Part shown: piece by piece, positions 2,846 through 23,094 of the stretch
How positions within the stretch are numbered: the first letter of the stretch is position 1
Layout of the letters: the number at the start of each line of letters is the position of its first letter
DNA from: Gordonia sp. (in: high G+C Gram-positive bacteria)
GTDB lineage: Bacteria > Actinomycetota > Actinomycetes > Mycobacteriales > Mycobacteriaceae
Direction: 5' to 3'
Assembly (NCBI RefSeq): GCF_020438995.1
Contig: NZ_JAGQTN010000265.1
Location: forward strand, 1-48,304
Length of the DNA: 48,304 nucleotides
Translations under genes and position numbers: made by a program
Notes under the pieces: generated by a model
Databases searched by the model: none
What the model was told of the DNA's origin: nothing
Seen by the model: only the letters and a program-made list of their open reading frames with translations

Positions 2846-2851
2846 GTGCGG

Positions 2852-8218: not shown

Positions 8219-8761
8219 TCAGATGAGGAAGGCCAGTGTGGGCAGCGGCTTGTCGTTGTCGACCAGAACGACCTTCTTGTAGGCCAGTTTGATCTCGCCG
8301 TCGATCTTGCGGAGCCGGTAGGTTGTCCTGCCGCCCCAGAGCTGATTGCCCCGCGCCTTCGACTCGAAGGCCAGGAAGTTGGCGCCGACCTCGATATCGA
8401 CTGTGCCACAGTCATTCTCGCGGCCGCCGAGCAATTCGATGTTGCTGATCAGGCGCCGCAGGTCCGACGGAGGTGCCTGTGCGTAGCGGCGACCCGTCCT
8501 GACCTGCTTGAGGCGGGTGCGGATGCGGTTGCGGTTGTCATAGATCACCGAGACCGTGCGCATCGGGTCGATGTCGGCTCCGCCGGCCGGTACCCAGTAC
8601 AGCGCGTCGTCGGTCCAGAGCTCTTCCCAGTTGTCGTAGTCGTTCTCGTCCGCGAACCGGGCCTCCTTGTACAGGAACTGGCAGACCTCGTCGTAGGTCC
8701 ACCCCGATGGCACCGGGCCGAGTTGATCGGCCGCGTTCGGGGTCGATGTCGATGCCGTCAT
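8219..8761 (-). CDS. Aromatic-ring-hydroxylating dioxygenase, beta subunit
   Basis: 180 residues, the usual length for the small subunit of Rieske non-heme-iron oxygenases, which have an NTF2-like fold. Typical stretches are FLYKEARFADENDYDNWEEL near the N-terminus, DALYWVPA, and the central IYDNRNRIRTRL/RRYAQAPPSDLRRLI region. It starts one base after the alpha-subunit stop, so the two are made together. It has no metal site and stabilises the alpha3beta3 hexamer in characterised relatives. With the alpha subunit it should add dioxygen across a ring. No ferredoxin or reductase gene is present in the window, so electrons must come from elsewhere in the genome. Confidence 0.9.
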   Translation of the reverse strand: MTASTSTPNAADQLGPVPSGWTYDEVCQFLYKEARFADENDYDNWEELWTDDALYWVPAGGADIDPMRTVSVIYDNRNRIRTRLKQVRTGRRYAQAPPSDLRRLISNIELLGGRENDCGTVDIEVGANFLAFESKARGNQLWGGRTTYRLRKIDGEIKLAYKKVVLVDNDKPLPTLAFLI

Positions 8762-8762
8762 C

Positions 8763-10052
8763 TCAGGCCTCCATCAAAGTGCGGTAATGCTTCCAGAAGC
8801 CGCGCATACCGGTCTCGTCGGTGGCGCCGCCGATACGGAAACCGTTGTCGTCGATGTCTTCCCGGATCAGGCCGCGTCGTACGTCGAGCCACTCGGGGTC
8901 GAGCATGCTCACCCCGACCTGGTTGCGCTCGTACATTTCGGTGTCGTCGGCCAGCAACATGCCGGCCGGTCCGACAGAACCGATCGACTGCTGGATGAAC
9001 CGGCGATTGAGTTCTTCGGCGCCGTCGAGCTGGACCGCGGTCGCGTACGACACGCATTCACCGACCGCCACCGGCTGGATGTTGAACACCTGGATCTCGG
9101 CGATGAAGAGATTAGGGAAGATCATCACGTGCGGTGCACCTTCGATCATGCGCCGCCGGGCATCGTCGCCGTAGGCCGCCTGCATCGCCGCGGCGTACTT
9201 GGGGACCCGTTCGGGGGTGGTGGCGAACCAGCGCATCGGTTCGTCGAACTTGCGGAATTCGGGCCGCAGATCGTTCTCGCTGTGGCCGCCACCGAGCTCC
9301 CGGGTCACCGCCGTGGAGGAATCGCCGTACAGCGGGCCGATGGTGCTCCCGGTGACAGTGAAGATCGAACCGTGCACGAACTGCGGGTGGTAGCCGTCGG
9401 TCTCGTTCTCGGCCAGGAATTTCCAGTTCGACCGGGTGCGGTGGCCGAGCCACCCGACGTCGAGGGTGATGCTCTCGGTGGGCGAGAGCCCGGCGAGCCG
9501 GTCGATCTCGCCGGCCGCCGCGCCGAGGTGCTCCTCCAGCGAGGGTCCGTCATGAGCCATCGACCCGAAGACGAATCCCCGGTACGAGGCGACCCGCGGA
9601 ACGCGGCCCATGCTCAGGTCCAGTTCCTTGGACCCGCCGTACCCCTTGGCGAAGGGATACCCGATCAGCTTGCCGTCGTTGCGGAACGTCCAGCCGTGAT
9701 AGGGGCACCGGAACGCGCGTGAGTTGCCCTTGTCCGCATCGCACACCTGCAGCCCGCGGTGCGCGCACCGGTTGATCAGCAGGTGCACCTCGCCGCTCTT
9801 GTCCCGGGTCATCACCACGTCCTGGGTGGCCAGCTTCTTGCGGACGTAGTCGAACGGCTGCGGCACCTCGCTCTCGTGCCCGACGAATACCCAGGTTGTG
9901 AACCAGATCTTGCGCAGTTCCTCAGCGAAGATCTGCGGGTCGGTGTACAGCGAACCATGGACCTGGTCCGGCCTGATCAGATTGCTCACGATGCTCTTCG
10001 CTTCGCGCTGCGGATGCTCAAGTCCGGCGCCGGGGCCGACGACAGAGGTCAT
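8763..10052 (-). CDS. Aromatic-ring-hydroxylating dioxygenase, alpha subunit (Rieske)
   Basis: 429 residues. The Rieske [2Fe-2S] ligands are visible as C96-x-H98 (RCAHRG) and C116-x2-H119 (RCPYHGW). The mononuclear iron site is in ENETDGYHPQFVHG, with D219, H222 and H227 in the standard spacing. This is the catalytic subunit that dihydroxylates an aromatic ring using NADH-derived electrons. The ATG is preceded by GGGAGG-like sequence (AAGGGAG) at good spacing; an in-frame GTG two codons upstream lacks that spacing. It is the first gene of the ten-gene minus-strand operon, with a shared operator-like motif 56 bases upstream. The nearest substrate class cannot be assigned by eye. Confidence 0.93.
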   Translation of the reverse strand: MTSVVGPGAGLEHPQREAKSIVSNLIRPDQVHGSLYTDPQIFAEELRKIWFTTWVFVGHESEVPQPFDYVRKKLATQDVVMTRDKSGEVHLLINRCAHRGLQVCDADKGNSRAFRCPYHGWTFRNDGKLIGYPFAKGYGGSKELDLSMGRVPRVASYRGFVFGSMAHDGPSLEEHLGAAAGEIDRLAGLSPTESITLDVGWLGHRTRSNWKFLAENETDGYHPQFVHGSIFTVTGSTIGPLYGDSSTAVTRELGGGHSENDLRPEFRKFDEPMRWFATTPERVPKYAAAMQAAYGDDARRRMIEGAPHVMIFPNLFIAEIQVFNIQPVAVGECVSYATAVQLDGAEELNRRFIQQSIGSVGPAGMLLADDTEMYERNQVGVSMLDPEWLDVRRGLIREDIDDNGFRIGGATDETGMRGFWKHYRTLMEA

Positions 10053-10107
10053 GACCACTCCCTTCTAATGATCGATCCGTACCGATGCTTACCGTACCGA
10101 TGCTTAA

Positions 10108-10125
10108 TCTGTATTAAACACTATT
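10108..10125. promoter_or_regulatory. Operator-like motif, site 1 (dioxygenase operon promoter)
   Basis: TCTGTATTAAACACTATT aligns with four other sites in this window (13588, 15085, 18439, 22133). It overlaps a perfect inverted repeat TTAAT-CTGT-ATTAA at 10104-10117, the only site of the five with an obvious palindrome. It lies 56 bases before the dioxygenase alpha start. Just beside it is a tandem GTACCGATGCTTA-like pair (about 10080-10106). Probably bound by the TetR protein encoded at 14435 (inference). Confidence 0.55.
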
Positions 10126-10143
10126 TCTAACGCATATTCGAGA

Positions 10144-10263
10144 CTATCGCGGGGTGAGCTCGCGCAGGTGAGCCGAGCTGATCTGATCGCGCACCGCGAA
10201 CTTGCGGACCTTGCCGGTCGGCGTGGCGGGGAAGGCGTCGGCCACGAACCATCGGGCGGGGCA
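10144..10263 (-). pseudogene. Remnant of an acyl-CoA synthetase, last 39 codons
   Basis: The minus strand encodes CPARWFVADAFPATPTGKVR followed by KFAVRDQ and a short tail ending in TAG. This is the C-terminal A10 motif of the ANL family (acyl-CoA ligases), in which the PTGKVRK lysine is catalytic. Nothing upstream encodes the other roughly 500 residues: the fragment begins within about 15 bases of the preceding crotonase stop. A ligase gene appears to have been removed by an internal deletion that left its 3' end. It has no start of its own and is not expected to make a functional protein. Confidence 0.75.
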
Positions 10264-10276
10264 CCGGTGCCAGTGG

Positions 10277-11059
10277 TCAGCTCGGCTGTTGCCCGAACCG
10301 GGGTTGACGGCGTTCGGCGAATGCGGCGACACCTTCGGCGAAATCATCACTGGCGAACAGCTGAATCTGTTGAGCCAGCTCGCGATCCAGGATTTCCGGA
10401 ACCGTACCGACAGGCTCGGCGAGCATCGCCTTGATCGCCCCGTAGGCGCGCAGAGGTCCGCCGGCGAGGATTGCCGCGTCATCGAGCGCCTTGGCCAGGA
10501 CTTCTCCGTCGGGCACCACCTCGTCGGCCATACCCAGCTGCAGTGCTTCGGCGGCCGCGACGACCCGGGGAAGCAGCAGGAGCTGTTTGGCGCGGGCCGG
10601 ACCGACGCGGGCGGGCAGGCTGGCGAAGATGCCCATGTCACCGGCCAGCCCCACCCCGGTGAAGGCCATCGACATCCGCACCGTGTCGCCGATGATGACC
10701 CGGTCACAGGCCAGGGCCAGCGACACCCCGGCACCGTAGGCGGCGCCCTCCACCGCCGCGATCACCGGTTTCGGTGTCCCCCAGATGGCGCGAATCACCC
10801 GCTGGGCGGCCTCGGTGCGTGGGCGGGCTTCCTCTGGTGTCACCCGCTTCATCGTCGAGATGTCTCCACCCGAGCAGAACATCTTGCCCGCACCGGTGAT
10901 GACGATCGACCGGATCGCATCGTCGGCCGCGGCCGCTTCGAGGATCTCGGCGAGCTCGACACGCAGTCGCAGGTCGATGGCGTTTCGCCGTTCGGGCCGG
11001 TTGAGCGTCACCAGTTCGACCGCGCCGCGGCGTTCGGTGTGCACCGTCGCGGCGGTCAT
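10277..11059 (-). CDS. Enoyl-CoA hydratase/isomerase family protein, third crotonase of operon
   Basis: 260 residues with the crotonase fold (LNRPERRNAIDL, MFCSGGDIS oxyanion-hole region). Both glutamates of classical hydratases are missing: the first position reads GAGVSLALAC (residues 109-118) and the second region reads GVGLAGDMG, with Asp141. This fits a delta-isomerase, hydrolase or other non-hydratase crotonase. The ATG overlaps the previous crotonase stop by four bases (ATGA). It is the last intact gene of the minus-strand operon starting at 13447, and is followed directly by the acyl-CoA ligase remnant. Confidence 0.88.
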   Translation of the reverse strand: MTAATVHTERRGAVELVTLNRPERRNAIDLRLRVELAEILEAAAADDAIRSIVITGAGKMFCSGGDISTMKRVTPEEARPRTEAAQRVIRAIWGTPKPVIAAVEGAAYGAGVSLALACDRVIIGDTVRMSMAFTGVGLAGDMGIFASLPARVGPARAKQLLLLPRVVAAAEALQLGMADEVVPDGEVLAKALDDAAILAGGPLRAYGAIKAMLAEPVGTVPEILDRELAQQIQLFASDDFAEGVAAFAERRQPRFGQQPS

Positions 11060-11874
11060 GATCCTACGAACTTCGGTGCGCGCTTTTCGATGACTGCGGC
11101 CAGCCCTTCGAGCGAATCGGCCGTGCCCGACAGCGCGGACACGACGCGCGCCTCCTCACCCAGCCGCGCTTCCACCGACGACCCGATACCGTCCCAGACG
11201 AGCCGTTTGGTCGCGGCGACCGCGAGCGGTGCCATGGCAGCCAGTTGCCGCGCCAGTTCGGACACCCGATCGGTCAGCGCGTCGTCGTCGACGACCTCGG
11301 TGACCAGGCCGATGTCCTTGGCGTCCTGGGCCGTCAGCGTCGGATTGGTCAGCAGGATCTCCAGCGCCTTACGCAATCCGACCAGCTGGGTCAGCGTGAC
11401 GGTGGTGCCGCCATCCGGTGCCATACCGACGCGCACCGCACCCGAGAAGAGCTTGGTCGAGCGAGCGGCCACCACGATGTCGGAGGCGCACACCAGCCCC
11501 AGGCCGCCGCCGCCGGCGGCGAAGCCATGGATGCCGGTGACCACCGGCGCCTTGAGCCGCAGCAGCGAGGCCGTGGCGATCTGCAGCCACGCGGTGGCCT
11601 CCCGCAGATAGTCCGGGAGCTGCTCGCCTTTCGAGGCGAAGGTCTTCACGTCGCCGCCGGCGCAGAAGATCTTGCCCTCGCCGGTCAGCACGACGACCCG
11701 CACCGACGGATCTCCGTGACAGGTGAGTACGGCGTCGTTGAGCGCGCGCAGCAACTCGACGTCGAGACCGTTGGCCGCGGCCGGGCGATTCAGACGTATC
11801 CAGCCGATACCGTCGGCGATATCGAGCAAAACGGGAGGTGCGCCGTCCGCACCTGCTTCCGAGGCCTCACTCAT
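11056..11874 (-). CDS. Enoyl-CoA hydratase/isomerase family protein, second crotonase of operon
   Basis: 272 residues. I chose the ATG at 11874 because AGGAG lies 6 bases before it; an in-frame GTG at 11916 overlaps the preceding stop but would add 14 odd residues (MIQPHNHLKNQEQP). The oxyanion-hole segment is IFCAGGDVKTF. The first catalytic Glu is replaced (GGGGLGLVC, residues 121-129), while MAPDGGTT places Asp154 where PaaG-like isomerases have theirs. It therefore may shift a double bond or open a ring rather than hydrate. It is preceded by another crotonase and overlaps the next by four bases. Confidence 0.88.
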   Translation of the reverse strand: MSEASEAGADGAPPVLLDIADGIGWIRLNRPAAANGLDVELLRALNDAVLTCHGDPSVRVVVLTGEGKIFCAGGDVKTFASKGEQLPDYLREATAWLQIATASLLRLKAPVVTGIHGFAAGGGGLGLVCASDIVVAARSTKLFSGAVRVGMAPDGGTTVTLTQLVGLRKALEILLTNPTLTAQDAKDIGLVTEVVDDDALTDRVSELARQLAAMAPLAVAATKRLVWDGIGSSVEARLGEEARVVSALSGTADSLEGLAAVIEKRAPKFVGS

Positions 11875-11912
11875 GGGCTGCTCCTGATTCTTCAAGTGAT
11901 TGTGGGGTTGGA

Positions 11913-12716
11913 TCACCGGTTGCCGGCAGTCGCGCGCGACCCGAACGCACTCACGCCATCGGCCCCGGCGTCGCCGCCGATATGGGCCACCACGGCGTCG
12001 AGTTCGGCGGCCAGTCCGGTGTCGAGATCTGTGGTCATCGCGTGTTGGACAAGTCGTTTGATGCCGATGACGGCATCCCGCTTGCGGCCGGCCAGTGTCC
12101 GGATGAAGGCGGTGGTCTCGTCCTCGAAGGTCTCGGCCGGCCAGGATGCGTAGGCGAGGCCCTGTTCGACTGCTTCGGCGCCGGAGAGCCGGACCCCCGA
12201 CAGCAGCAGTCCCAGCGCACGCTGGCGGCCGACGATCCGGGGCAGCCGCTGGGTGCTTCCGCCACCGGGGAGCTGCCCGAAGCGGATGTGATTGTCGGCG
12301 ATCCTCGCGTCGTCACGAACGAGAACGATGTCGGCGGCCTGCATGAATTCGAACCCGCCCGCCATCGCGACGCCCTCGACCACCGCGACCACCGGCACCG
12401 GACTGTCGGCGACCGCCGCGCAAGCACGTGAGAAGTTGACGAACAGCTCCCGCAGCCCGTCCGCACCGACGGCACGCAAGCGTTCAACTTCCGCGAAATC
12501 ACCTCCGGCACAGAAGTTTCCACCCGATCCGCGAACCACGACGACGTTGACGTCCGAACGTGCCGACGAGTCGGCGATGGCGGCCCGCAATTGTTCGCCG
12601 AGTTCTACGGTGATCGCGTTCATCTGTTCCGGGCGATTGAGCGTGACGGTGGCGATCGCGTCGGCGACCACCACCTCGACAACCCGGTTCCGGTCTCCGG
12701 TGACGTCGGTACTCAC
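11913..12716 (-). CDS. Enoyl-CoA hydratase/isomerase family protein, first crotonase of operon
   Basis: 267 residues, GTG start overlapping the SDR stop by four bases. Crotonase marks are LNRPEQMNAITVEL, NFCAGGDFAEVERL and LPGGGSTQRLPR. The first catalytic Glu is kept (Glu123 in AGGFEFMQA), but the second position reads ADNHIRFGQ instead of PEI, so only one of the two hydratase acids is present. It could be a hydratase with altered specificity or a dehydratase/isomerase. It sits between a FabG-like reductase and two further crotonases that each lack a different acid, so the three are unlikely to be redundant. Confidence 0.88.
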   Translation of the reverse strand: MSTDVTGDRNRVVEVVVADAIATVTLNRPEQMNAITVELGEQLRAAIADSSARSDVNVVVVRGSGGNFCAGGDFAEVERLRAVGADGLRELFVNFSRACAAVADSPVPVVAVVEGVAMAGGFEFMQAADIVLVRDDARIADNHIRFGQLPGGGSTQRLPRIVGRQRALGLLLSGVRLSGAEAVEQGLAYASWPAETFEDETTAFIRTLAGRKRDAVIGIKRLVQHAMTTDLDTGLAAELDAVVAHIGGDAGADGVSAFGSRATAGNR

Positions 12717-13447
12717 ATTCCCCGCCCGCCGCTGACCTCGGTCACGGTTCCGGTGACATAACTGGCCAGATCCGATGCCAGGAAGGTGACCACGCCGGCG
12801 ACCTCACGCGGCTCGCCGGCGCGGCGCATCGGGATGGTGGCCTCGGTCGCGGCGAATGCCTCCGCGCTCATGGCCGCGGTCATCGGGGTCTTGATGAGGC
12901 CCGGCGCGACGGCGTTCACCCGCACGCCGTGGTGGGCCAGTTCCTTGGCGGCCGCCTTGGTCAGGCCCACGATCCCGGCTTTGGCCGCGCTGTAGTTGGT
13001 CTGCCCCGGATTGCCGATCTTTCCCGACATCGACGACAGATTGATGATGCTGCCGCCCTTGCCGCGCATGATCGCCGCGGCCTCCCGGACACCGAGCCAG
13101 CTGCCCCGCAGGTGCACGTCGATGACGAGTTGGAAGTCGGCAAGTGTCATATTGCGCAGCGACGCGTCCCGGGTGACCCCGGCGTTGTTGACCCAGATAT
13201 CGAGTCCGCCCCACGCCTGCACGACGGCGCTCGCGGCGGCGCGCATATCGTCTTCGGAGGTCACGTCGGCGCCGATGCCGATCGCGTCCGGTCCGAGCTG
13301 TGCGGCCGCTTCGGCGGCGCGCCGCGCGTCGAGGTCGATGAGGGCGACCTTGGCTCCGTGCGCGGCCAGCTCGGTGGCGATGGCCAACCCGATACCCTGG
13401 GCCGCACCGGTCACCACCGCCCTCTTGTCCGCCAGTAGTTCACCCAT
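12713..13447 (-). CDS. Short-chain dehydrogenase/reductase, FabG-like
   Basis: 244 residues, classical SDR. It shows TGAAQGIG (NAD(P) binding), a DLD segment after the second strand that favours NAD(H), NNAG, and the catalytic Ser (NLSSMSG, near 138), Tyr152 and Lys156 (YSAAK). The ATG at 13447 has a GGAAGGTG ribosome site; a TTG one codon upstream was not used. First gene of the SDR-crotonase operon. It could oxidise a beta-hydroxyacyl-CoA made by the crotonases, or a cis-dihydrodiol made by the Rieske dioxygenase; sequence alone does not decide. Confidence 0.9.
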   Translation of the reverse strand: MGELLADKRAVVTGAAQGIGLAIATELAAHGAKVALIDLDARRAAEAAAQLGPDAIGIGADVTSEDDMRAAASAVVQAWGGLDIWVNNAGVTRDASLRNMTLADFQLVIDVHLRGSWLGVREAAAIMRGKGGSIINLSSMSGKIGNPGQTNYSAAKAGIVGLTKAAAKELAHHGVRVNAVAPGLIKTPMTAAMSAEAFAATEATIPMRRAGEPREVAGVVTFLASDLASYVTGTVTEVSGGRGM

Positions 13448-13587
13448 CAAATCACCTTCCGCACAATATATTCAGCGCAGCCACACGCGGTGGCCGATCG
13501 TTCGTGGCGGCGATCGCCGCTCCCGAGCCGACCGCCGCCGGGCCGTGCGCCTATCACCACCGGTACTGGACGCATTACAAAATTGAA

Positions 13588-13605
13588 GCTAGATTAAGTC
13601 ACTGA
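13588..13605. promoter_or_regulatory. Operator-like motif, site 2 (SDR/SDR-tetR divergent promoter)
   Basis: GCTAGATTAAGTCACTGA matches the shared motif best in its left and middle part (CTAGATTAAGT); the right half is degenerate. It lies in the 187-base divergent region between the minus-strand SDR-crotonase operon and the plus-strand SDR-tetR operon, and could control both. The rest of the gap holds no gene. Confidence 0.5.
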
Positions 13606-13634
13606 TCAAGTCAATGAAGGCGAATTGGTGGAAT

Positions 13635-14438
13635 ATGGATCTGGGATTGGACAACGCGAGGGTTGTCATCACCGGCGGCGCTTCCAACATCGGTCGCGGC
13701 ATCGTCCACGGCTACGCCGCCGAGCACTCGCGCATCCTGCTCTGCGACATCGATGAGCAGCAGGCCCGCCGCGTCGAACGCGAGGCGCTCGAGAAGGGCG
13801 CGGCCCAGGTTCTGGTCGTCGTCGCCGATCTGACCGAACCCGGTGCGGGCGAGCACGTCATCGCCGAGGCCGTCCGGGCCTGGGGCGGCGTGGACGTCCT
13901 GGTCAACAACGCGGGCTGGAGTATCGGCGAGTTCGTCGCACGCGATCACGATCGGGACCGCTGGCACAAGCTGGTCGACATCAACCTGTTCGCGACGATC
14001 GAGGCCACCCAGGCGGCGATCGCCGCGATGCGCGCCGACGATACGGCCGGCGGCTCGATCGTGACCGTGGCCAGCGAGGCCGCTTTCGGCCAGATCCGCC
14101 AAGGCGTCTACGGTGCGACCAAAGCCGCCCAGGTCGCACTGGCGCGCACCGTCGCCCGCGAACACGGCCGGCACGGCATCCGCTCCAATGTCGTCTGCCC
14201 CGGTCTGGTGATCCCCGACGGACCGGAGGCCGTCGGGGAGAAGAGCCTGTGGGCGGGCGGCACCGACGCCGTCTTCAACGACAACCAGATCGGCTACCTT
14301 CTCAAAGACACTCCGTTGCAACGGCTGACACTCGCCGACGACATCGCCAACGCGACCCTGTGGCTCAGTTCGGATATCGCTGCCCGGCAGGTGACTGGAC
14401 AGCTGATCTCGGTCAGCGGAGGCTATACGATGCCATGA
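13635..14438 (+). CDS. Short-chain dehydrogenase/reductase, co-transcribed with tetR
   Basis: 267 residues from the ATG at 13635. An in-frame ATG seven codons upstream (13614) sits 8 bases after the operator-like motif with no ribosome site, so I prefer the internal one, moderately. It has TGGASNIG for cofactor binding, CDID after the second strand, NNAG, Ser147, Tyr159 and Lys163 (YGATK). The C-terminus keeps the QLISVSGGYTMP ending of the family. It overlaps the TetR gene by four bases. Likely an NAD-dependent alcohol or hydroxyacyl-CoA dehydrogenase of the same pathway. Confidence 0.87.
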   Translation: MDLGLDNARVVITGGASNIGRGIVHGYAAEHSRILLCDIDEQQARRVEREALEKGAAQVLVVVADLTEPGAGEHVIAEAVRAWGGVDVLVNNAGWSIGEFVARDHDRDRWHKLVDINLFATIEATQAAIAAMRADDTAGGSIVTVASEAAFGQIRQGVYGATKAAQVALARTVAREHGRHGIRSNVVCPGLVIPDGPEAVGEKSLWAGGTDAVFNDNQIGYLLKDTPLQRLTLADDIANATLWLSSDIAARQVTGQLISVSGGYTMP

Positions 14439-15040
14439 CCGCCGATTCGCATCGCGCCGGCAACATGGGTAGCGGCCTCGACACCAGGGACCGGCTCCTT
14501 CGCTGCACGGCGACGATTCTCGCCTCGAAGGGGTACGGGCAGACCCGTCTGCGAGACATCGCAGCCCTGGCCGGCGTCCGCAGTCCGGCCATCTACTACC
14601 ACTTCGCCTCACGCGACGAGCTCGTGGCCGCGACGCTCTGCGTGGGCCAGCAGCGGCTCCGGCAGCGGGTGCAGGCGGCCATCCACGCAACCGGCGGACC
14701 GTGGCACAAGCAACTGGCCGCCGCGGTGACCGCACACCTGGACGTCCAATTGGAGATGGCCGATTTCGCCCGGGCGGTGAGCCGCAACGCCGGCCACGGA
14801 CCCGCCGTCGCACAGGAACGGATCCAGGCAGAGAACGACGCGTACCACGACGTGTGGCGCGCGCTTCTGCAACGTGGTCGCGAGTCGGGCGACATCCGTG
14901 ACGATCTCGATCTGTCCGTCGCCCGGATGCTCGTGATCGGCGCACTGAACTGGGCCGTCGAATGGTGGACACCCGACAGACCGTTCGACGAACTCGCGGC
15001 CACCTCGATCGCTGTCATCACCGCTGCCCTGAGCGCCTGA
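14435..15040 (+). CDS. TetR/AcrR-family transcriptional regulator
   Basis: 201 residues. The N-terminal helix-turn-helix covers about residues 20-65 (TRLRDIAALAGV, SPAIYYHFASRDELVA), typical of TetR proteins; the rest is the helical ligand-binding half. Its ATG overlaps the SDR stop. It is the only regulator gene in the 0.1-23 kb catabolic region, and five promoters there share an 18-bp motif, so it is the natural candidate repressor, releasing DNA when a pathway acyl-CoA binds. That pairing is inference. The motif differs from the KstR and KstR2 operators I remember. Confidence 0.92.
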   Translation: MTADSHRAGNMGSGLDTRDRLLRCTATILASKGYGQTRLRDIAALAGVRSPAIYYHFASRDELVAATLCVGQQRLRQRVQAAIHATGGPWHKQLAAAVTAHLDVQLEMADFARAVSRNAGHGPAVAQERIQAENDAYHDVWRALLQRGRESGDIRDDLDLSVARMLVIGALNWAVEWWTPDRPFDELAATSIAVITAALSA

Positions 15041-15084
15041 CCCACGCCGGGCCCCACAGCGAAACCCATACCACTAGTTTTGAG

Positions 15085-15102
15085 TCTATGTTAAATTCAA
15101 CT
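15085..15102. promoter_or_regulatory. Operator-like motif, site 3 (thiolase/acyl-CoA dehydrogenase promoter)
   Basis: TCTATGTTAAATTCAACT aligns closely with site 5 (TCTACATTAAACTCAAAC). It sits 24 bases before the thiolase ATG and just upstream of an AAGGAGG ribosome site, so a bound protein would block transcription start. The flanking TTGA and TCAA form a loose inverted pair. Confidence 0.55.
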
Positions 15103-15126
15103 GGACATCATCCATAAGGAGGATCA

Positions 15127-16278
15127 ATGCCTGAGGCATATATCGTCGACGCGGCACGTACGGCCGTCGGCAGGCGCGGAGGTGGCTTCGCCGATTCGCA
15201 TCCGGCCGACATGGCCGCGCACGTCATCAAGACCGTCACCGGCAGGCACGACTTCGACCCTGCCGACATCGACGACGTCATCCTCGGCTGCCTGGACAAC
15301 ATCGGTTCACAGGCCGGAGACATCGCCCGCACGTCCGCTCTGGCGGCGGGACTGCCCGAAAGCGTGCCGGGCGTGACCATCGACCGGCAGTGCGGATCGG
15401 CACAGCAGGCGGTGTCGTTCGCCGCGCAGGCCGTGATGAGCGGCACCTCCGACATCATCGTGGCCGGTGGCGTGCAGAAGATGAGTCAGTATCCGATCCT
15501 GTCGGCGTTCGGCGCCGGTGAGCCGTTCGGTTCGGCCGACCCCTGGACCGGCTGCAAAGGCTGGTTCGAACGCTACGGCGACCAGGAGATCTCGCAGTTC
15601 CGCGGTGCCGAGATGATCGCCGACCAGTGGGGCCTCTCGCGCGAGGACAACGAGCGCTTCGCCCTCGAAAGCCACCGGCGCGCACTGCATGCGATCGACA
15701 ACGGATACTTCGAAAAGGAGATCACCGAGTTCGAGGGCATCACCACCGACGAAGGGCCGCGCCGCGACACCTCAGCCGAAAGGCTCGCCGGCCTGAAGAC
15801 GCTGATCCCCGACGGTGTGCTGACCGCTGGTGTGGCCAGCCAGATCTCCGACGGCGCGGCCGCGCTGCTGGTCGTCTCCGAGGCCGCCGTCGAGCGCTAC
15901 GGATTCACTCCCCGTGCGCGCGTGCACCACATCTCCGCCCGCGGTGCCGATCCCGTCATGATGCTGTCGGCACCGATTCCCGCGACCCAGCACGCGCTCA
16001 AGCGCGCCGGACTGTCGATCGAGGATATCGACACCGTCGAGATCAACGAGGCATTCGCACCGGTTGCACTCGCCTGGATCGCCGAGATCGGCGCGGACCC
16101 GGCGAAGGTCAATCCGAACGGCGGCGCTATCGCCCTGGGCCATCCCATCGGCTGCACCGGCGCCCGGCTGATGACCTCGATGCTGCACGAACTCGAGCGC
16201 ACCGGCGGCCGGTACGGACTGCAGACCATGTGCGAGGGCGGCGGTCAGGCGAACGTCACCATCATCGAAAGGCTGTGA
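15127..16278 (+). CDS. Thiolase, acetyl-CoA C-acyltransferase family
   Basis: 383 residues. Cys89 lies in TIDRQCGSAQQA, with NEAFAPVA, GHPIGCTGARL and MCEGGGQAN completing the thiolase set. It should cleave a beta-ketoacyl-CoA. A near-perfect AAGGAGG lies 6 bases before the ATG, so strong translation is expected. It has its own operator-like motif and is followed after four bases by an acyl-CoA dehydrogenase. It is a different subfamily from both thiolases of the dioxygenase operon (Cys loop DRQCG versus DRRCG and ENYCATG). Confidence 0.93.
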   Translation: MPEAYIVDAARTAVGRRGGGFADSHPADMAAHVIKTVTGRHDFDPADIDDVILGCLDNIGSQAGDIARTSALAAGLPESVPGVTIDRQCGSAQQAVSFAAQAVMSGTSDIIVAGGVQKMSQYPILSAFGAGEPFGSADPWTGCKGWFERYGDQEISQFRGAEMIADQWGLSREDNERFALESHRRALHAIDNGYFEKEITEFEGITTDEGPRRDTSAERLAGLKTLIPDGVLTAGVASQISDGAAALLVVSEAAVERYGFTPRARVHHISARGADPVMMLSAPIPATQHALKRAGLSIEDIDTVEINEAFAPVALAWIAEIGADPAKVNPNGGAIALGHPIGCTGARLMTSMLHELERTGGRYGLQTMCEGGGQANVTIIERL

Positions 16279-16282
16279 CCCC

Positions 16283-17431
16283 ATGGAGCGTTCACTGTAC
16301 GAGGCCGACCATGAGGCCTACCGGGAGACAGTTCGCGAGTTCCTGGCGCGGGAGGTCGAACCCCACAAGGACAAGTGGGACGACGAGAAGTGGATCGACC
16401 GCGAGGTATTCGCCCGGGCCGCCAAGACCGGTATCTACGCGCTACAGGTTCCCGAGCAGTACGGCGGTTCGGGCGAATCCGACTACCGGTACCGAATGGT
16501 GGTGTGCGAGGAGATCGCACGGATCAACGCGTTGTCGTTCGGGCTGACGATCAGTCTGCAGGACGACCTGGTCCTGCACTATCTCCTCGATCTCCCGAAC
16601 GACGATCAGAAGCAGCGCTGGCTGCCGGGATTCGCCGCGGGCGAGACCATCGGCGCACTGGCGATGACCGAACCGGGCACCGGCAGCGACCTGCGTGGTA
16701 TCCGCACCAGTGCGCGCCGCGACGGCGACCACTGGATTCTGAACGGGCAGAAGACATTCATCTCCAGCGGCATCATGGCCGATCTGGTGGTGGTCGCGGC
16801 CTGTACCGACCCCGATGCCGGTTCGCGTGGCCTGAGCCTGTTCGTGGTGGAACGTGACACCCCCGGGTTCGTGCGCGGCCGTCAGCTCGACAAGATCGGA
16901 CTACCCGCGCAGGACACCGCGGAACTGTTCTTCGATGACGCCCGGATTCCCGCGGCGAATCTGCTCGGCGAGGAAGGCCGCGGACTGCAGTATCTGATGG
17001 GTCATCTGCCACGCGAACGGCTCGGGGTGTCCGCCAAGGCGATGGCGACCACGCGCGCCATCTACGAACTGACCGTGGAGTACTGCAAGGACCGCAAGGC
17101 CTACGGCAAACCGATCATCGATCTGCAGCACACCCGGTTCGAACTGGCCGAGATGTCCACCGAAATCGACATCGCGACAGCATATGTCGACGCAAGTGTG
17201 CTCGCCTACAACGCGGGCAATCTCTCCCCCGTCGACGCCGCCAAGGGCAAGTGGTACATCAGCGAGCTACAGAAACGGGTCATCGACCGTTGTCTGCAAC
17301 TGCACGGTGGTTACGGATATATGCGTGAATACGCCGTCGGCAAGGCGTATATCGACACCCGTATCCAGACCATTTACGGCGGAACCACCGAGGTGATGAA
17401 GGAGATCATCGGGCGCGATATCGCCCGTTGA
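16283..17431 (+). CDS. Acyl-CoA dehydrogenase
   Basis: 382 residues. Flavin and substrate regions are clear (AMTEPGTGSDLRGI, WILNGQKTFISSG, HGGYGYMREY). At the usual catalytic spot it reads IYGGTTEVMK, so the Glu of YEGT is a Gly; the base may be elsewhere, as in isovaleryl- and long-chain enzymes. It starts four bases after the thiolase stop and ends just before a strong terminator. It would carry out the first oxidation of a beta-oxidation round whose last step is the thiolase upstream. Confidence 0.92.
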   Translation: MERSLYEADHEAYRETVREFLAREVEPHKDKWDDEKWIDREVFARAAKTGIYALQVPEQYGGSGESDYRYRMVVCEEIARINALSFGLTISLQDDLVLHYLLDLPNDDQKQRWLPGFAAGETIGALAMTEPGTGSDLRGIRTSARRDGDHWILNGQKTFISSGIMADLVVVAACTDPDAGSRGLSLFVVERDTPGFVRGRQLDKIGLPAQDTAELFFDDARIPAANLLGEEGRGLQYLMGHLPRERLGVSAKAMATTRAIYELTVEYCKDRKAYGKPIIDLQHTRFELAEMSTEIDIATAYVDASVLAYNAGNLSPVDAAKGKWYISELQKRVIDRCLQLHGGYGYMREYAVGKAYIDTRIQTIYGGTTEVMKEIIGRDIAR

Positions 17432-17463
17432 CGAATACCGGACAATGTGGCGACGCCGGTCGC

Positions 17464-17502
17464 AAAAGGGGCCGGGACGGCATTGCCGTCCCGGCCCCTT
17501 TT
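17464..17502. terminator. Bidirectional intrinsic terminator
   Basis: A perfect inverted repeat of 19-base arms (AAAAGGGGCCGGGACGGCA and its complement) separated by one base. It has A-tract and T-tract ends, so it can stop transcription in both directions. It sits between the convergent acyl-CoA dehydrogenase (+) and SDR (-) genes. Confidence 0.9.
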
Positions 17503-17512
17503 GGCGCTTGCT

Positions 17513-18376
17513 TCAGCCGACCGGATTGACGCCGGCCACCGCGCCGGTCATGTCGGTGATCTCGGCCCAGCGTTCGGCCACCACCTCCGGGGCGGGCGGT
17601 TCGGCGAATGTGACTCCGGCATTGGCGAATTGCTGCACCCGCTGCACCTGACCACCGCCGACGACGAACACCGAACCGGTGTCGGTCAGCTCCTCGGTCA
17701 GCAATTGCGTCACGACGGGGGCGACGAACGCAGGCGGCAACTTGGCCAGCAATTCCTCGGGTGCCACATCCTCGGTCATGCGGGTGGCCGCGATCGGCGC
17801 GACCGCATTGGCCCTGATGTCGTGTTTCGCGCCCTCGATGGCCAGGGTGTTGATGAGCCCGACCAGGCCGAGTTTGGCAGCGCCGTAGTTGGCCTGCCCG
17901 AAGTTGCCGTACAGGCCGGTCGTCGACGTCGCCACGACGATCCGCCCGAACTGCTGCTCACGAAAGTGCGGCCACAGTGCCCGGGTGATGTGATAGCCGC
18001 CGTACAGGTGCACCTGGAGCACCGCGTCCCACTGCTCGTCGGTCATCTTCGCGAAGGTGGTGTCGCGCAGGATGCCGGCGTTGCTCACCACACCGTGGAC
18101 CGCTCCGAAGGCGTCCAGCGCGGTGCTCACGATCGATGCCGCGCCCTCTGCGGTGGCGACGGAGTCGTAGTTGGCCACGGCCTGCCCGCCCGCCTCGATG
18201 ATCTCGGCAACCACACCGTCGGCGGCGGCCGAACCCGATCCCGAACCGTCCCTGGCCCCACCGAGGTCGTTGACCACCACGCGCGCGCCCCGCGATGCCA
18301 GCAACTTCGCGTATTCGCGTCCCAGACCGCCACCGGCCCCGGTCACGATGACCACCCGCTGATCCACACCAGCCAC
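17513..18376 (-). CDS. SDR-family 3-hydroxyacyl-CoA dehydrogenase (MFE-2-like)
   Basis: 287 residues from the GTG at 18376, which has AGGAG with 7-base spacing; the open frame extends 29 codons further without a ribosome site. TGAGGGLG near residue 12 and the VVVNDLGG segment are typical of the dehydrogenase part of peroxisomal multifunctional enzyme 2. The Ser-Tyr-Lys triad appears in VVATSTTG and NYGAAKLG. It likely oxidises a (3R)-hydroxyacyl-CoA to the ketoacyl-CoA used by a thiolase. It is divergent from the carboxyltransferase, with an operator-like motif between them, and therefore likely in the same regulon. Confidence 0.88.
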   Translation of the reverse strand: MAGVDQRVVIVTGAGGGLGREYAKLLASRGARVVVNDLGGARDGSGSGSAAADGVVAEIIEAGGQAVANYDSVATAEGAASIVSTALDAFGAVHGVVSNAGILRDTTFAKMTDEQWDAVLQVHLYGGYHITRALWPHFREQQFGRIVVATSTTGLYGNFGQANYGAAKLGLVGLINTLAIEGAKHDIRANAVAPIAATRMTEDVAPEELLAKLPPAFVAPVVTQLLTEELTDTGSVFVVGGGQVQRVQQFANAGVTFAEPPAPEVVAERWAEITDMTGAVAGVNPVG

Positions 18377-18438
18377 GATTGCACTCCTCACTCCGGCCAC
18401 GTCGTCATGGCCCGTCGATGAAACTGTATAGATTCGAA

Positions 18439-18456
18439 TGTAGATTAAGTTAAACT
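18439..18456. promoter_or_regulatory. Operator-like motif, site 4 (SDR/carboxyltransferase divergent promoter)
   Basis: TGTAGATTAAGTTAAACT is one of the best matches to the shared motif. It lies 62 bases from the SDR start and 77 from the carboxyltransferase start, in position to control both directions. Confidence 0.55.
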
Positions 18457-18533
18457 CTGACACAACGACCAGCCCGGCCGGCCGGCGATCGTCGCAACCG
18501 ACGGCCGCGTTCCACAGTCAGGAGACCGCGCCC

Positions 18534-20075
18534 GTGCCAACGAGTTCCGAACAGATCGCCGCCGCCTACGCCGCCACCGGCGACCAGGCGCGCCCCGACG
18601 CGCTCGCCGCCCAGCACAGCCGGGGCAAACTGACCGCGCGGGAACGGATCGCCCTGCTGTGCGGCGACGACTTCGCCGAGTTCGGCGCGCTGGCCACACC
18701 CGACCTCATCGCCGGACATCAGGTTGCCCCGAACTCACATCTCTACGGCGACGGCGTCGTGACCGGGACCGGATTCATCGACGGCAGACCGGTGACGATC
18801 GCAGCCTTCGACTTCACCGTTCTGGGCGGCAGCAACGGCGATGTCGGCATGCGCAAGATCGGTCGCTGCATCCAGGCATCGCTCGACGACCGGATACCGC
18901 TGGTGCTGCTCTGCGACGGCGGCGGCCACCGCATCCAGGAGGGACTCGATTCCCGGCTCGCGGCAATCGGATCGACGATGCTCACCCGCCTGGTCGATCT
19001 GTCCGGGCTGGTGCCGACCGTCACGGTGATGATGGGCCCGGGGTTCGGCCTGGCGACCAATCTCGCCGCCCTCTGCGACTTCGTGGTGATGGTCCGTGGT
19101 ACCTCGACGATGGGGATGTCGGCGGCACCGTTCGTCAAGGCCGGCACCGGCGAAGACCTCACCAACGAGCAGATCGGCGGAGCCGATGTCCAGGCCTGCA
19201 ACGGCATCGCCGACCTCGCCGCCGACGACGAACACGAGGCACTCGACGCGGTACGCGCCTACCTCAGCTACCTGCCGTCATCGGCCGACGAGGATATCCC
19301 CATCGGCAGCGGCCTCGAGTCGGGGTTCGACGCCGACGCACTGATCCCGGACTCCCCGCGGCGCGCCTACGACGTGCGCGACGTCATCGAAGCGATCTCG
19401 GATGCGGACTCCCTGTTCGAGGTCCGGGGTGCCGCGGCACCCAATATCGTCACCTGTTTCGCCCGGCTCGGCGGCAGGGCGGTCGGCGTGGTGGCCAATC
19501 AGCCGGCTCACCTGGGTGGCTCCCTCGACAGCGGCGCCTGCGAGAAGGCTGCGCATTTCATCGCCGTGTGCGACGCGTTCGGCCTGCCGCTGGTGATCAT
19601 GATCGACCTGCCCGGTTTCCTGATCGGCACGGCCGCCGAGTCCGCCCAACTCGGTCGCCGCAGCGGACGCCTCATGTACGAACTCGCCCTGGCCACCGTG
19701 CCGCGCTATGTGATCGTGATGCGCAAGGCCTACGGCGCGGCTTATGTCGCGATGGGCGGCGGCCGCAGCATCGACGCCGATCTCGTCGTCGCCTGGCCGA
19801 CCGCCGAGATCTGCGCGATGCCCATCGACAGCGCCGTCGACATCGCCTATCGGCGCCAGATCCAGGCGGCCGAGGATCCCGCCACCCACCGCGAGGCCGT
19901 GATCGACAGACTGCGCGCGGACGTGAACCCACTACGTGCGGCATCGGGCTTCGGCATCGACGACATCATCACCCCCGGCCAGACCAGAGCGGCTCTGATC
20001 CAGGCCCTCCGGCGCGCCCGGAGGCGGCGTGCCGATCGGGTTCCCGGAAAGCGTCGCTCGATCTCGCCGATCTGA
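18534..20075 (+). CDS. Acyl-CoA carboxylase carboxyltransferase (beta) subunit
   Basis: 513 residues, GTG start with AGGAG nine bases upstream. Both crotonase-like halves of a biotin-dependent carboxyltransferase are visible: HSRGKLTARERIALL at the start, LLCDGGGHRIQEG in the N-domain, and ANQPAHLGGSLDSGACEKA, IDLPGFLIGTAAES and KAYGAAYVAMGG in the C-domain. These enzymes move CO2 between carboxybiotin and an acyl-CoA. No biotin carboxylase or biotin carrier gene is in the window, so it must borrow an alpha subunit or work in reverse as a decarboxylase. It is the only gene of its transcript. The last residues are Arg-rich. Confidence 0.9.
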   Translation: MPTSSEQIAAAYAATGDQARPDALAAQHSRGKLTARERIALLCGDDFAEFGALATPDLIAGHQVAPNSHLYGDGVVTGTGFIDGRPVTIAAFDFTVLGGSNGDVGMRKIGRCIQASLDDRIPLVLLCDGGGHRIQEGLDSRLAAIGSTMLTRLVDLSGLVPTVTVMMGPGFGLATNLAALCDFVVMVRGTSTMGMSAAPFVKAGTGEDLTNEQIGGADVQACNGIADLAADDEHEALDAVRAYLSYLPSSADEDIPIGSGLESGFDADALIPDSPRRAYDVRDVIEAISDADSLFEVRGAAAPNIVTCFARLGGRAVGVVANQPAHLGGSLDSGACEKAAHFIAVCDAFGLPLVIMIDLPGFLIGTAAESAQLGRRSGRLMYELALATVPRYVIVMRKAYGAAYVAMGGGRSIDADLVVAWPTAEICAMPIDSAVDIAYRRQIQAAEDPATHREAVIDRLRADVNPLRAASGFGIDDIITPGQTRAALIQALRRARRRRADRVPGKRRSISPI

Positions 20076-20100
20076 TCCTCACGCCCGTCTGATCCTCACG

Positions 20101-20125
20101 GCCGGTCGCCGCCACGGCGACCGGC
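20101..20125. terminator. Hairpin after the carboxyltransferase gene
   Basis: GCCGGTCGCC-gccac-GGCGACCGGC, perfect 10-base arms, 25 bases after the stop. There is no T-tract, so it may act with the second hairpin at 20145-20200. Confidence 0.55.
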
Positions 20126-20144
20126 ACCATGCGCGCACGACAAA

Positions 20145-20200
20145 GCCGCCGCACCAAGGGGATTCGTCACGTCGGGGACGATCCTCCCAGGTGCGGCGGC
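20145..20200. terminator. Probable bidirectional terminator between convergent genes
   Basis: Arms GCCGCCGCACC and GGTGCGGCGGC (11 bp, extended by AAA and TTT outside) enclose a 34-base loop. It lies between the carboxyltransferase (+) and the small coiled-coil protein gene (-). Confidence 0.6.
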
Positions 20201-20226
20201 CTTTGAGCCTGCCGTAGCGGGCAAGA

Positions 20227-20481
20227 CTACTTCGCGCCGGCCTTGACTGCGGCAAGCTGGTCGACCTTGGCGGTCAGTTCGCTGAGGGCCTGCTTCAGGG
20301 TGGCGACCTCGTCAGCACTGGGCGAATCGGCGTCATCGTCGCCCAGCGCCGAAGTCGCGGCGTCGCGAGCCTTCTCCTCGAACTCCTGAGCCCGGTCGAT
20401 CAGGTCGTCGACGAGCGCCTTGCTGTCGTCGATGACGTCGCTCAGGAAGGTGGTGAAGGTGTTCTTGCGTCGAGCTCCCAT
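20227..20481 (-). CDS. Small coiled-coil protein, unknown function
   Basis: 84 residues with AGGAG seven bases before the ATG. The protein is highly charged and helical: a basic start (MGARRKN), an acidic centre (DDDADS), and a heptad-like end (ATLKQALSELTAKVDQLAAV). This resembles the layout of phasins and other small granule or envelope coiled-coil proteins, but I cannot assign it. It is monocistronic between a terminator and a 172-base upstream gap. That gap contains an AT-rich stretch, a GCGTAATACGC palindrome (20554-20564) and no other gene. It is probably not part of the catabolic regulon, since its promoter lacks the shared motif. Confidence 0.75.
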   Translation of the reverse strand: MGARRKNTFTTFLSDVIDDSKALVDDLIDRAQEFEEKARDAATSALGDDDADSPSADEVATLKQALSELTAKVDQLAAVKAGAK

Positions 20482-20653
20482 GGGAGGTCTCCTATCTTTG
20501 AGGCTTCCCTCTTGCGAGGTGTTCCGGTCGGGTTCCGAGCTAATCTATGCTCTGCGTAATACGCTACACGGTGCGTAAACTTTCGTCAACACTTTTCTAG
20601 TTTCTGATAAATATGCTGGTCACCTGGCCGAACACGCCGTACCGAGACCTCGG

Positions 20654-22030
20654 TCAGTGCGTCAAGTGCTCCACCAGGACGACCTGAAGCTCACCGACCA
20701 TGAACCCGAGAAGCGCCCCCACGGCGATCAAGGTCTTCTCATCGGCGCGGAAGGCCGGCCGCAGTACTCCTTCGAACTCCTCCGGAGTCATCGCGGCCAT
20801 CTTCTCCGACATCGTGCCTTCGATGTCCAGCGTGTCGGTCAGGTATCGCTCCGCCGATCCGAGCATCAGATCGGGCAAGACTCTCACGGCCTCCTCGGCG
20901 AATGCGGTGCACATCGGTTCCACCTGAGTCAGATCGAGGCCGACGCTGGCAATTCCCTTGGTCGGTCCGCTCAGCACATCCAGAAATCCGCCGAGCACCT
21001 TGCCCGGCGACACACCGGCGATCTGCAATTTGCCGAAGTCCAACTCGCGGAACAGCGGCAGGTCACGCAGGTCCACGTCGACGTAGCGATTCAGATCGCC
21101 GATCTCCTCCCGCAATTCGGCCTCGAGCACCTCGGCCACCACCTTCACCACGCCGGAGGTGTCCTCGCCGCCGCAGATGCCACGCAGGAGCCTGTCGGGT
21201 GTGAGAACCCTTGTCGCGATGAGTGAGCCGTACTCCCTGGCCACCGGAACACGATGCTGCTGGAACAAGCCCTGCCACTTGATGAATCCGAGGTACTTCT
21301 TCGGTTCCCGGGGGTAGAAGATCAGGCGAAGTGCGGCCCAGTCGGTGAACCAGCCGGTGAATAGGCCGAACAACGGCATGACCCAGGGATTGTGGGTGAG
21401 CGCCCACACCGCGACCTGTACCAATCCGATGAAGAATCCGAAGACCAACCCGCTGCGCCGGATGAATGCGAACTCTCGCCGCCCGACGTCCCGGAACATC
21501 GATTCCAGGGTGGTCGGATCGTCCAGAAACTCCTTGGTCGCCATCGTCTGCAGATCGAAGATGTCATCGATTCGGTCGACGACCCCGTCGACCAGCGCTA
21601 CGACGGCATCAGGTGCCGACCGCTGCACCCGTTCGATCAGGAAGTCCTGCGCGACCGACGGGAGTAGGCCCCAGAGCGTCGGCTGGTACTCCGCCAGGAC
21701 CTTACGCGTAATCCGTGCGACCTCGGCACGCAGCGGGCGATCGATCAGCGCGGCAAGCTCCGCGGCGTCGATTCGCTCGGCGATCTCCTTGGCGTTAACC
21801 AGGCGCGGCGTGAGGGTTTCACACAGAATCGTCACCATCTGCGGCGCACGCTTGGGGATGATGCCCTGCCAGCCCAGCGGCCCGATGCCCTTGAACGTAT
21901 ACGGCCGGAACATCATCTTGATCGCCACGATCTTGGTGACCCAGCCGATCAGCGCCGCCACGAACGGCATCGCCACATAGATCGGCCAGTTCCGGTGGAA
22001 ATCTTCGGTGATCTGCGCCCAAGTCTGCAC
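20654..22030 (-). CDS. DUF445 family membrane protein
   Basis: 458 residues, GTG start. A first membrane span covers about residues 15-36 (IYVAMPFVAALIGWVTKIVA) and is followed by the family hallmark IKMMFRPY and GIGPLGWQGIIPKRA. Further hydrophobic stretches lie in the middle (VFGFFIGLVQVAVWALT, MPLFGLFTGWFTDWAALR) and at the C-terminus. DUF445 proteins are inner-membrane proteins of unknown role. The gene is divergent from the thioesterase across a 161-base region that carries operator-like site 5, so it may belong to the regulon by position, although its role in catabolism is not evident. Confidence 0.88.
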   Translation of the reverse strand: MQTWAQITEDFHRNWPIYVAMPFVAALIGWVTKIVAIKMMFRPYTFKGIGPLGWQGIIPKRAPQMVTILCETLTPRLVNAKEIAERIDAAELAALIDRPLRAEVARITRKVLAEYQPTLWGLLPSVAQDFLIERVQRSAPDAVVALVDGVVDRIDDIFDLQTMATKEFLDDPTTLESMFRDVGRREFAFIRRSGLVFGFFIGLVQVAVWALTHNPWVMPLFGLFTGWFTDWAALRLIFYPREPKKYLGFIKWQGLFQQHRVPVAREYGSLIATRVLTPDRLLRGICGGEDTSGVVKVVAEVLEAELREEIGDLNRYVDVDLRDLPLFRELDFGKLQIAGVSPGKVLGGFLDVLSGPTKGIASVGLDLTQVEPMCTAFAEEAVRVLPDLMLGSAERYLTDTLDIEGTMSEKMAAMTPEEFEGVLRPAFRADEKTLIAVGALLGFMVGELQVVLVEHLTH

Positions 22031-22132
22031 TGCTCTTCAATCTCCTACATCACGACGTCGAGCTCATGTCCTGCCGATGCGGGAGCCGTTGACGCACTTT
22101 CCATGCCAGGATGGCGAACCTGCAAAATGTAT

Positions 22133-22150
22133 TCTACATTAAACTCAAAC
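22133..22150. promoter_or_regulatory. Operator-like motif, site 5 (DUF445/thioesterase divergent promoter)
   Basis: TCTACATTAAACTCAAAC is nearly the consensus of the five sites. It is 42 bases before the thioesterase GTG and 103 before the DUF445 start. Confidence 0.55.
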
Positions 22151-22191: not shown

Positions 22192-23094
22192 GTGCGCAAT
22201 TTTCCGACAAGCGAAGGCGATACCGCTCGCCCCGATCCGCGAACGCTTCCCGGCACACTGCTGGCAAAATTCACCACGGACCCGGCCGCGAACACGATCG
22301 GCGTCCGGCTCACCGAAGCGGCCGAACCCGGCGAGGTCGCCTTCGTCCAGTCGGTGCAGGGATGGCAGCGCGATCGCCGCGGCCGTGCGGGACTCGCATC
22401 GCTCGGTATCCTCCTCGACGTGGCCGCCGGCTCGGGCATCTACCTGCTTCGCCCCGAGAATGAATACGTCGTTTCGCACATATCGGTGTCGATGGTCCCG
22501 TGGGCGGTCATCGGGGACGAGGTGACCGCATCATCGTCGCCGCTCGCGGTGGACGACCACACCGGCACCGGTCTGGCCACCGCACGCATGGAGTCCGGCG
22601 GGGCACTCATCGCGAGCGCACGCTGCCGCTCGGCGCAGACGGTGCGCCCCAATCTCCCCGAGGACATGCTCACCGGTTTCCGGACCGACCCCGCGGCATT
22701 CGATGCCGGGCAGCCGCTGACCACCCACCTCGGACTCGCCAGGGTCGATGACGGCTCTGCGCCCGACCGGTTCCGAATCCGCTGGCAGGTGCCCGAATGG
22801 GCACTCAACTCACTCGGCACCGCACAGGGCGGGAGCATTCTCAGCGCCGCCGCCGCGGTCACGGACATCATCGGGGACACCCTGCTCGGGGACGGCTCCG
22901 ACGACTACGCGCTGACCGACCTCGGCATCGAGCTGATGAGATCACCGGGTGCGTCGGCCGACGGGTACGAGTTCTCCGCCGAGATCATCCGGCGCGGCAG
23001 GCGATTGGTGGTGATGACCACCGATCTGCGCGACGGTTCGGGAAAACTGTTCACCCGCAGCACCGCCACGCTCGCCATAAAGTCACATTCCTGA
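22192..23094 (+). CDS. Two-hotdog acyl-CoA thioesterase-like protein
   Basis: 300 residues, GTG start. Two PaaI-type hotdog repeats are visible: an N-terminal one around residues 60-150 (RAGLASLGILLDVAAGSGIY) and a C-terminal one around 190-300 (WALNSLGTAQGGSILSAAAAV). The acid/amide motif before the long helix matches PaaI and acyl-CoA thioesterase folds. It likely hydrolyses a pathway acyl-CoA to free CoA when intermediates build up (inference). It sits alone after operator-like site 5 and is the last gene of the regulon on this side. Confidence 0.82.
   Translation: MRNFPTSEGDTARPDPRTLPGTLLAKFTTDPAANTIGVRLTEAAEPGEVAFVQSVQGWQRDRRGRAGLASLGILLDVAAGSGIYLLRPENEYVVSHISVSMVPWAVIGDEVTASSSPLAVDDHTGTGLATARMESGGALIASARCRSAQTVRPNLPEDMLTGFRTDPAAFDAGQPLTTHLGLARVDDGSAPDRFRIRWQVPEWALNSLGTAQGGSILSAAAAVTDIIGDTLLGDGSDDYALTDLGIELMRSPGASADGYEFSAEIIRRGRRLVVMTTDLRDGSGKLFTRSTATLAIKSHS

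Follow-up and report, generated by a model that had tools for sequence, protein, structure and literature searches.

TetR-family repressors with palindromic operators are a known kind of regulator in mycobacteria. KstR2 is the TetR repressor in cholesterol use and has a 14-bp operator, AnCAAGnnCTTGnT (PMC3068626); Mce3R, a double TetR of about 400 amino acids, controls an mce operon through an asymmetric 25-bp operator (PMC11667970). The regulon that concerns us here is apparently undescribed: no description of its operator or of the regulon appeared among the matches listed in the open-access PMC literature. It lies in a Gordonia sp. (RefSeq assembly GCF_020438995.1, contig NZ_JAGQTN010000265.1), on a stretch of 48,304 bp that we call the window and that is an entire contig, C134, of a draft genome of 4.81 Mb in 325 contigs; its genes and nearest kin would point to a mycobacterium. 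Family scans of the window's proteins place a catabolic gene cluster in its left half, and five promoters of this cluster carry a 21-bp inverted repeat, TTKAATYTANNNTARATTMAA. On sequence grounds, this repeat is very probably the operator for a repressor of one TetR subfamily, most likely the product of the gene at 14435-15040, acting on about eight catabolic transcripts.

KstR2, which is among the solved relatives of the window TetR (E value 2e-12), likewise represses catabolic genes as a TetR protein, through a palindromic operator at few promoters, in mycobacteria and rhodococcus (PMC3068626). The differences are a site of 14 rather than 21 bp, other half-sites and other target genes. The original prediction, an earlier reading of the bare DNA, had said that the motif does not look like the KstR2 site, and it was right: the consensus we found differs from AnCAAGnnCTTGnT (PMC3068626). 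KstR itself was rejected as an identity, the window TetR (scanned as a longer open reading frame [ORF], 14249-15040) scoring 19.1 bits against the NF033703 cut-off of 280. Mce3R offers another likeness, namely autoregulated TetR-type control of an mce importer and lipid-metabolism genes, and its helix-turn-helix part matches the window TetR. Identity with Mce3R was also rejected, the window protein being 201 amino acids long with one TetR_N match and its operator palindromic, not asymmetric (PMC11667970). BkaR and other mycobacterial TetRs share the habit of a palindromic motif near their own gene and neighboring metabolic genes (PMC3920632, PMC4482099); the survey of 30 TetRs in PMC4482099 gives its motif logos as figures.

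The original prediction had aligned five intergenic strings, and all five are present where it placed them. They turn out to be parts of the 21-bp repeat, whose consensus is drawn from symmetric frequencies over 47 sites from eleven stretches. The one-sided consensus offered at first was over-fitted; with up to three mismatches it matches a single site in the window, the one at 22133. The idea that a catabolic regulon under TetR control shares one operator is supported, with the element itself corrected to the palindrome. The five predicted operators are as follows.

10103 to 10123: operator 1, CTTAATCTGTATTAAACACTA, in front of the Rieske oxygenase operon, which runs leftward; the weakest taken alone
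13583 to 13603: operator 2, TTGAAGCTAGATTAAGTCACT, between the short-chain dehydrogenase/reductase (SDR)/enoyl-CoA hydratase operon (minus strand) and the SDR-TetR operon (plus strand)
15080 to 15100: operator 3, TTGAGTCTATGTTAAATTCAA, upstream of the thiolase and acyl-CoA dehydrogenase genes
18434 to 18454: operator 4, TCGAATGTAGATTAAGTTAAA, in the divergent promoter of an SDR gene (minus strand) and a carboxyltransferase gene (plus strand)
22128 to 22148: operator 5, TGTATTCTACATTAAACTCAA, between a DUF445 gene (minus strand) and the gene at 22192 (plus strand)

Eight predicted transcripts start beside these five sites, in line with the six to eight first proposed. Sixteen positions of the repeat are constrained, in a pattern first drawn from site 15080 itself, which satisfies all of them; 22128 and 18434 satisfy 13 each, 10103 satisfies 11 and 13583 10. 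From the edge of the site to the annotated start, the distance is 44 bp for 10103 (to 10058), 10 for 13583 (to 13614), 26 for 15080 (to 15127), 79 for 18434 (to 18534) and 43 for 22128 (to 22192).

When the whole window is ranked with a matrix that includes the five sites, they take the top five positions and, with overlapping registers merged, are the sole ones scoring at least 15; this threshold, like the other score thresholds we use, was chosen after the data had been seen. In a leave-one-out ranking with the training sites masked, 10103, 15080, 18434 and 22128 each still rank first; for 13583, two positions score higher, 30079 and the overlapping register 13578. Dinucleotide shuffling of each intergenic stretch (1000 shuffles apiece) never reaches the observed best score at 15080, 18434 or 22128, and reaches it once for the stretch of 13583, where the best score is that of register 13578. 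The motif had been said to be absent from the promoters inspected between 23 and 48 kb, and no place there scores 15. The best, at 30079-30099, is a weak match whose score of 14.3 falls short of the threshold; it lies just before an ORF at 30092. A QacR-like arrangement of two offset dimers with a 5-bp shift was considered, and sites do score well when shifted by 5 bp. A 5-bp repeat is inherent in the palindrome and gives a flank-shuffled mean of about +7 at that distance on either side, and the excess over flank shuffles appears at other offsets as well as at 5 bp.

Further evidence comes from loci outside the original choice of sites. We trained a matrix on the five window sites alone and compared it with control matrices whose half-positions were permuted while mirror symmetry was kept. 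Five relatives with orthologous genes, taken after setting aside the near-identical genome G021, provide 219,555 bp in which 19 places score at least 19; the 300 permuted matrices average 1.27 such places and give at most 11, so that not one comes up to 19. Two Rhodococcus plasmid clusters hold 14 sites, against a mean of 0.92 and a maximum of 11 for 200 permuted matrices; these hits are not all independent, because the two clusters are related. Stretches from Pseudonocardia and a Mycobacterium avium plasmid add four sites (permuted mean 0.30, maximum 3). The Variovorax and Sulfitobacter stretches (L097 and L098), which encode a related Rieske enzyme and no close TetR, have no site scoring 19 (permuted mean 0.04, maximum 1). 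Among nine short TetR loci (L028-L036), six hold at least one site scoring at least 19; L030, L035 and L036 have none scoring even 13.

Rough gene calls cover 89 to 97% of the five relatives' loci, and 26 of the 30 positions scoring at least 19 (overlapping registers counted separately) fall outside them. The corresponding fractions are three of seven in G021 and four of five in the window, where 18434 is the exception; 18434 and at least some of the G021 exceptions fall in over-long starts of gene calls. Aligned with the orthologous promoters of G021, whose proteins are mostly 84 to 97% identical to those of the window (lowest 77%), the sites stand out as near-identical blocks in diverged spacers. 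Eleven of 12 loci have a site scoring 17.2 to 28.6 upstream of their SDR-TetR operon: the window, G021, G025, G028, G022, G001, L007 (Marmoricola), L093 (Rhodococcus qingshengii), L094 (Rhodococcus opacus PD630), L029 and L032. Wherever the thiolase is more than 80% identical to that at 15127-16278, a site stands in front of its gene (7 of 7 loci: the window, G021, G025, G001, G022, L007 and L093). L029 has tandem sites before its SDR-TetR operon, at 2919 and 2973, scoring 22.4 and 28.6.

Could the likeness be a coincidence, drawn from a large number of intergenic stretches? The sites were first chosen by eye, the one-sided consensus did fail and 10103 alone is near chance. Against this, a matrix built from the window predicts, in loci outside that choice, sites in front of the same genes, which refutes chance for the set, though not for 10103 alone. 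We give this explanation next to no credence.

The motif is also rare, and it keeps company with the TetR. A sequence-only model, R1, was built from 23 training sites, those of the 47 scoring at least 17 by the window matrix, in the loci G025, G028, G001, G022, L007 and L005. Searched against the window's own genome up to E 10, it returns two hits, 15077-15100 and 18429-18450, both in the window, and does not report the weaker window sites; the best motif hits of the genome fall in this cluster. A looser pattern, TNNAATYTANNNTANATTNNA with two mismatches, gives 17 strand hits at nine listed places, two of which are overlapping registers of 22128; five of the eight places left lie on C134 or on C116, a second contig of the draft described below. 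Among ten chosen genomes, R1 finds hits at E 1 or better in G021, G028 and G022 and none in the six members of the genus that lack a TetR match. Across 59 genomes of the genus, a hit at E 0.5 or better occurs in eight: seven of the ten with a close TetR and one of the 49 others, G043, at E 0.45 (Fisher p 2.7e-6, with limits of E 1e-30 for a close TetR and E 0.5 for the motif set after seeing the data, and with genomes not listed with a TetR match counted as negative). With the four training genomes removed, three of six genomes with a close TetR have a hit, as has one of the 49 others (p 0.003).

This rarity bears on another explanation, that the shared element is a promoter, with a TAnnnT core like a -10 box and AT-rich flanks, or is general AT-richness. 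The core does have the TAnnnT form, and in a window of 66% G+C the sites are rich in A and T. Against both readings stand the two-fold symmetry across 21 bp, the failure of permuted but still mirror-symmetric matrices built from identical columns, the scarcity of the motif in its own genome and the lack of a hit at E 0.5 in 48 of the 49 genomes of the genus that have no close TetR. We consider this explanation very improbable.

Several observations nevertheless weigh against reading the motif as the operator of a repressor of this TetR subfamily, most likely the 14435 protein, and we gather them here. Three of the eight loose-pattern places lie elsewhere in the genome, and the reversed control of that pattern gives four forward and four reverse hits. 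Site 10103 is weak alone (43 of 1000 dinucleotide shuffles reach its score); it is helped by conservation, G021 having a better palindrome, scoring 22.0, at the same place. G088 has no motif hit at E 1, and G016, G040 and G053, three of the ten TetR-positive genomes, have no site in the 59-genome scan, which used stricter filters that lose weak matches. L030 has an SDR-TetR operon and is the locus without a site. Thiolases only 44 to 72% identical to that of the window (G028, L005, L006, L011, L030 and L095) have no site scoring at least 15 directly before them. The M. avium plasmid (L096) carries a strong site, scoring 31.3, and a weak one, 17.3, before its SDR, and has no close TetR in the part examined. 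Eleven of the 37 TetR rows listed for the subfamily have a site of at least 15 within about 400 bp upstream, a stretch that for the SDR-operon TetRs is mostly SDR gene. Finally, contig C200 of the same draft, beside the cluster by synteny, holds two more TetRs of the subfamily that could bind the same sites.

A single TetR gene had been placed in the middle of the cluster, and that gene, at 14435, stands as the leading candidate. Its product has a TetR_N domain (PF00440, E 6e-12) and a TetR_C_24 domain (PF17932, E 4e-18), both exceeding the gathering score, and is 82% identical to the TetR of G021. The C200 paralogs are 36 to 40% identical to it and fall in other clades of the tree. The main rival reading is that the sites are operators of a C200 paralog, or are common to all three proteins, with 14435 one of several players. 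Subfamily paralogs do occupy the same syntenic region; R. qingshengii and R. opacus each have two subfamily TetRs beside a strong site (L093 14930 and 29037; L094 14916 and 29398, with another site of L094 at 24704); and the C200 paralog at 506 has a site scoring 18.0 close upstream, as do some other paralogs. Yet a site stands before the SDR-TetR operon itself in all but one of 12 loci, and many paralog promoters score low or have a differently arranged sequence. We judge this rival reading unlikely, without dismissing it. Control by 14435 alone is no more than likely, because of the two subfamily TetRs on C200.

The SDR-operon TetRs form two sets in a tree built without L006 and L012, one with the window, G021, G025, G028, G022, G001 and L007, joined by L028-L030, and a second made up of the Rhodococcus pair together with L032; operon position and descent agree imperfectly. 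The TetRs of L028 and L034 have a matching site too. Three Mycolicibacter loci (L008-L010) have divergent subfamily TetR genes at about 9.8 kb with one operator-like site between them and no orthologous cluster in the stretch examined. In the Pseudonocardia plasmid cluster (L095, 31051-32283, minus strand), we noticed a 410-residue TetR whose two halves each weakly match the window TetR, like a Mce3R-type double TetR.

The predicted regulon continues beyond the window. A single stretch of G021, a one-contig genome, runs collinear with C200, C116 and C134, and C116 carries two further sites. Its operon families were read from the proteins of G021, and alignment to that genome places site 6858 immediately before a YrbE/MlaE-MlaD (mce-type) operon and site 11536 in front of an operon that includes a FadD4-like CoA ligase, a match below the NCBIfam cut-off. 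Since these sites precede import and CoA-ligase operons, the predicted regulon includes uptake and activation.

Taking the 14435 protein as the likely regulator, and by analogy with the TetR family, we envisage a dimer that would bind the 21-bp repeat, whose core resembles a -10 box (TAnnnT) close upstream of the start codons. Bound there, it would block about eight transcripts for the CoA-linked breakdown of a hydrophobic or cyclic acid and, on C116, the mce-type importer and CoA-ligase operon. Its own SDR-TetR operon would be among them; operator 2 stands before that operon, so autoregulation is predicted. An intermediate of the pathway, perhaps an acyl-CoA, would release the protein. Taken together, the importer, the CoA ligases, the Rieske enzyme and the thiolases suggest a hydrophobic cyclic or aromatic acid as the substrate.

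The upper pathway for ibuprofen, ipfABDEF, has a Rieske pair (ipfA and ipfB), a DUF35 protein (ipfE) and a CoA ligase (ipfF). A thiolase (ipfDE) is named for it in PMC9195938. The pathway serves as an analogy only, by description; the present cluster differs in its many hydratases and its mce importer, and in that no ring-cleavage enzyme turned up among the proteins run through the family scans.

Related Rieske catabolic clusters sit on plasmids of R. qingshengii, R. opacus PD630 and M. avium (L093, L094 and L096), and for this reason the cluster may move between genera. A bolder and quite tentative view, which we would sooner doubt than defend, is of a travelling regulon for taking up an undescribed hydrophobic substrate, activating it and attacking its ring, on plasmids and chromosomes of several actinobacterial families, in which paralogous TetRs read a common 21-bp operator and different intermediates open overlapping gene sets. 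What the analysis offers in any case is a precise predicted operator for a regulon joining an mce importer to CoA-dependent catabolism, with plasmid relatives. The sites can reveal further pathway genes and so narrow the substrate, and the TetR could act as a substrate-finding sensor.

The genes around the five sites, for which annotation of the window's proteins reached to about 25.5 kb, are these.

304 to 4240, minus strand: amine-oxidase-like flavoprotein, acyl-CoA dehydrogenase and SnoaL-enoyl-CoA hydratase genes, by family matches
4099 to 5298, minus strand: thiolase-like protein, NF004810 above cut-off
5298 to 6737, minus strand: HMG-CoA-synthase-like protein with a ChsH2-type zinc ribbon and OB fold
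6683 to 7915, minus strand: thiolase, NF004853 above cut-off
8219 to 8761, minus strand: Rieske oxygenase beta subunit
8763 to 10058, minus strand: Rieske oxygenase alpha subunit, benzoate/3-phenylpropionate dioxygenase-like
10277 to 13450, minus strand: operon of a FabG-like SDR (12713-13450) and three enoyl-CoA hydratases (11913-12716, 11056-11916 and 10277-11059)
13614 to 14438, plus strand: SDR oxidoreductase, opening the SDR-TetR operon
14435 to 15040, plus strand: TetR-family regulator, 201 amino acids, TetR_N and TetR_C_24; its start overlaps the SDR stop (ATGA) at 14435
15127 to 17431, plus strand: thiolase (NF005865 above cut-off) and acyl-CoA dehydrogenase
17513 to 18400, minus strand: SDR oxidoreductase, replacing a plus-strand ORF at 17447-18421
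18534 to 20075, plus strand: carboxyltransferase, acyl-CoA carboxylase beta-like, by family matches
20654 to 22030, minus strand: DUF445 protein
22192 to 23094, plus strand: protein without assigned function; its G021 counterpart, 77% identical, likewise stands behind a site

The plus-strand ORF at 17447-18421 was rejected as a gene: it has no family match and is an antisense artefact of the minus-strand SDR. The frame opposite matches PF00106 (E 4e-39) and is 89% identical in G021, compared with 69% for the plus frame; translation probably starts at GTG 18400, 18391 or 18376. It is because the real gene is this minus-strand SDR that site 18434 lies in a divergent promoter. Compared with G021, the window lacks about 2.8 kb at 10144-10277, between the Rieske and hydratase genes, with two AMP-binding CoA-ligase genes; the missing sequence falls in two gaps flanking a remnant of about 116 bp. 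Record CP003957.1 of R. opacus PD630 splits the HMG-CoA-synthase/OB protein into two overlapping ORFs (L094 22094-23477), where another record of the same strain has one gene.

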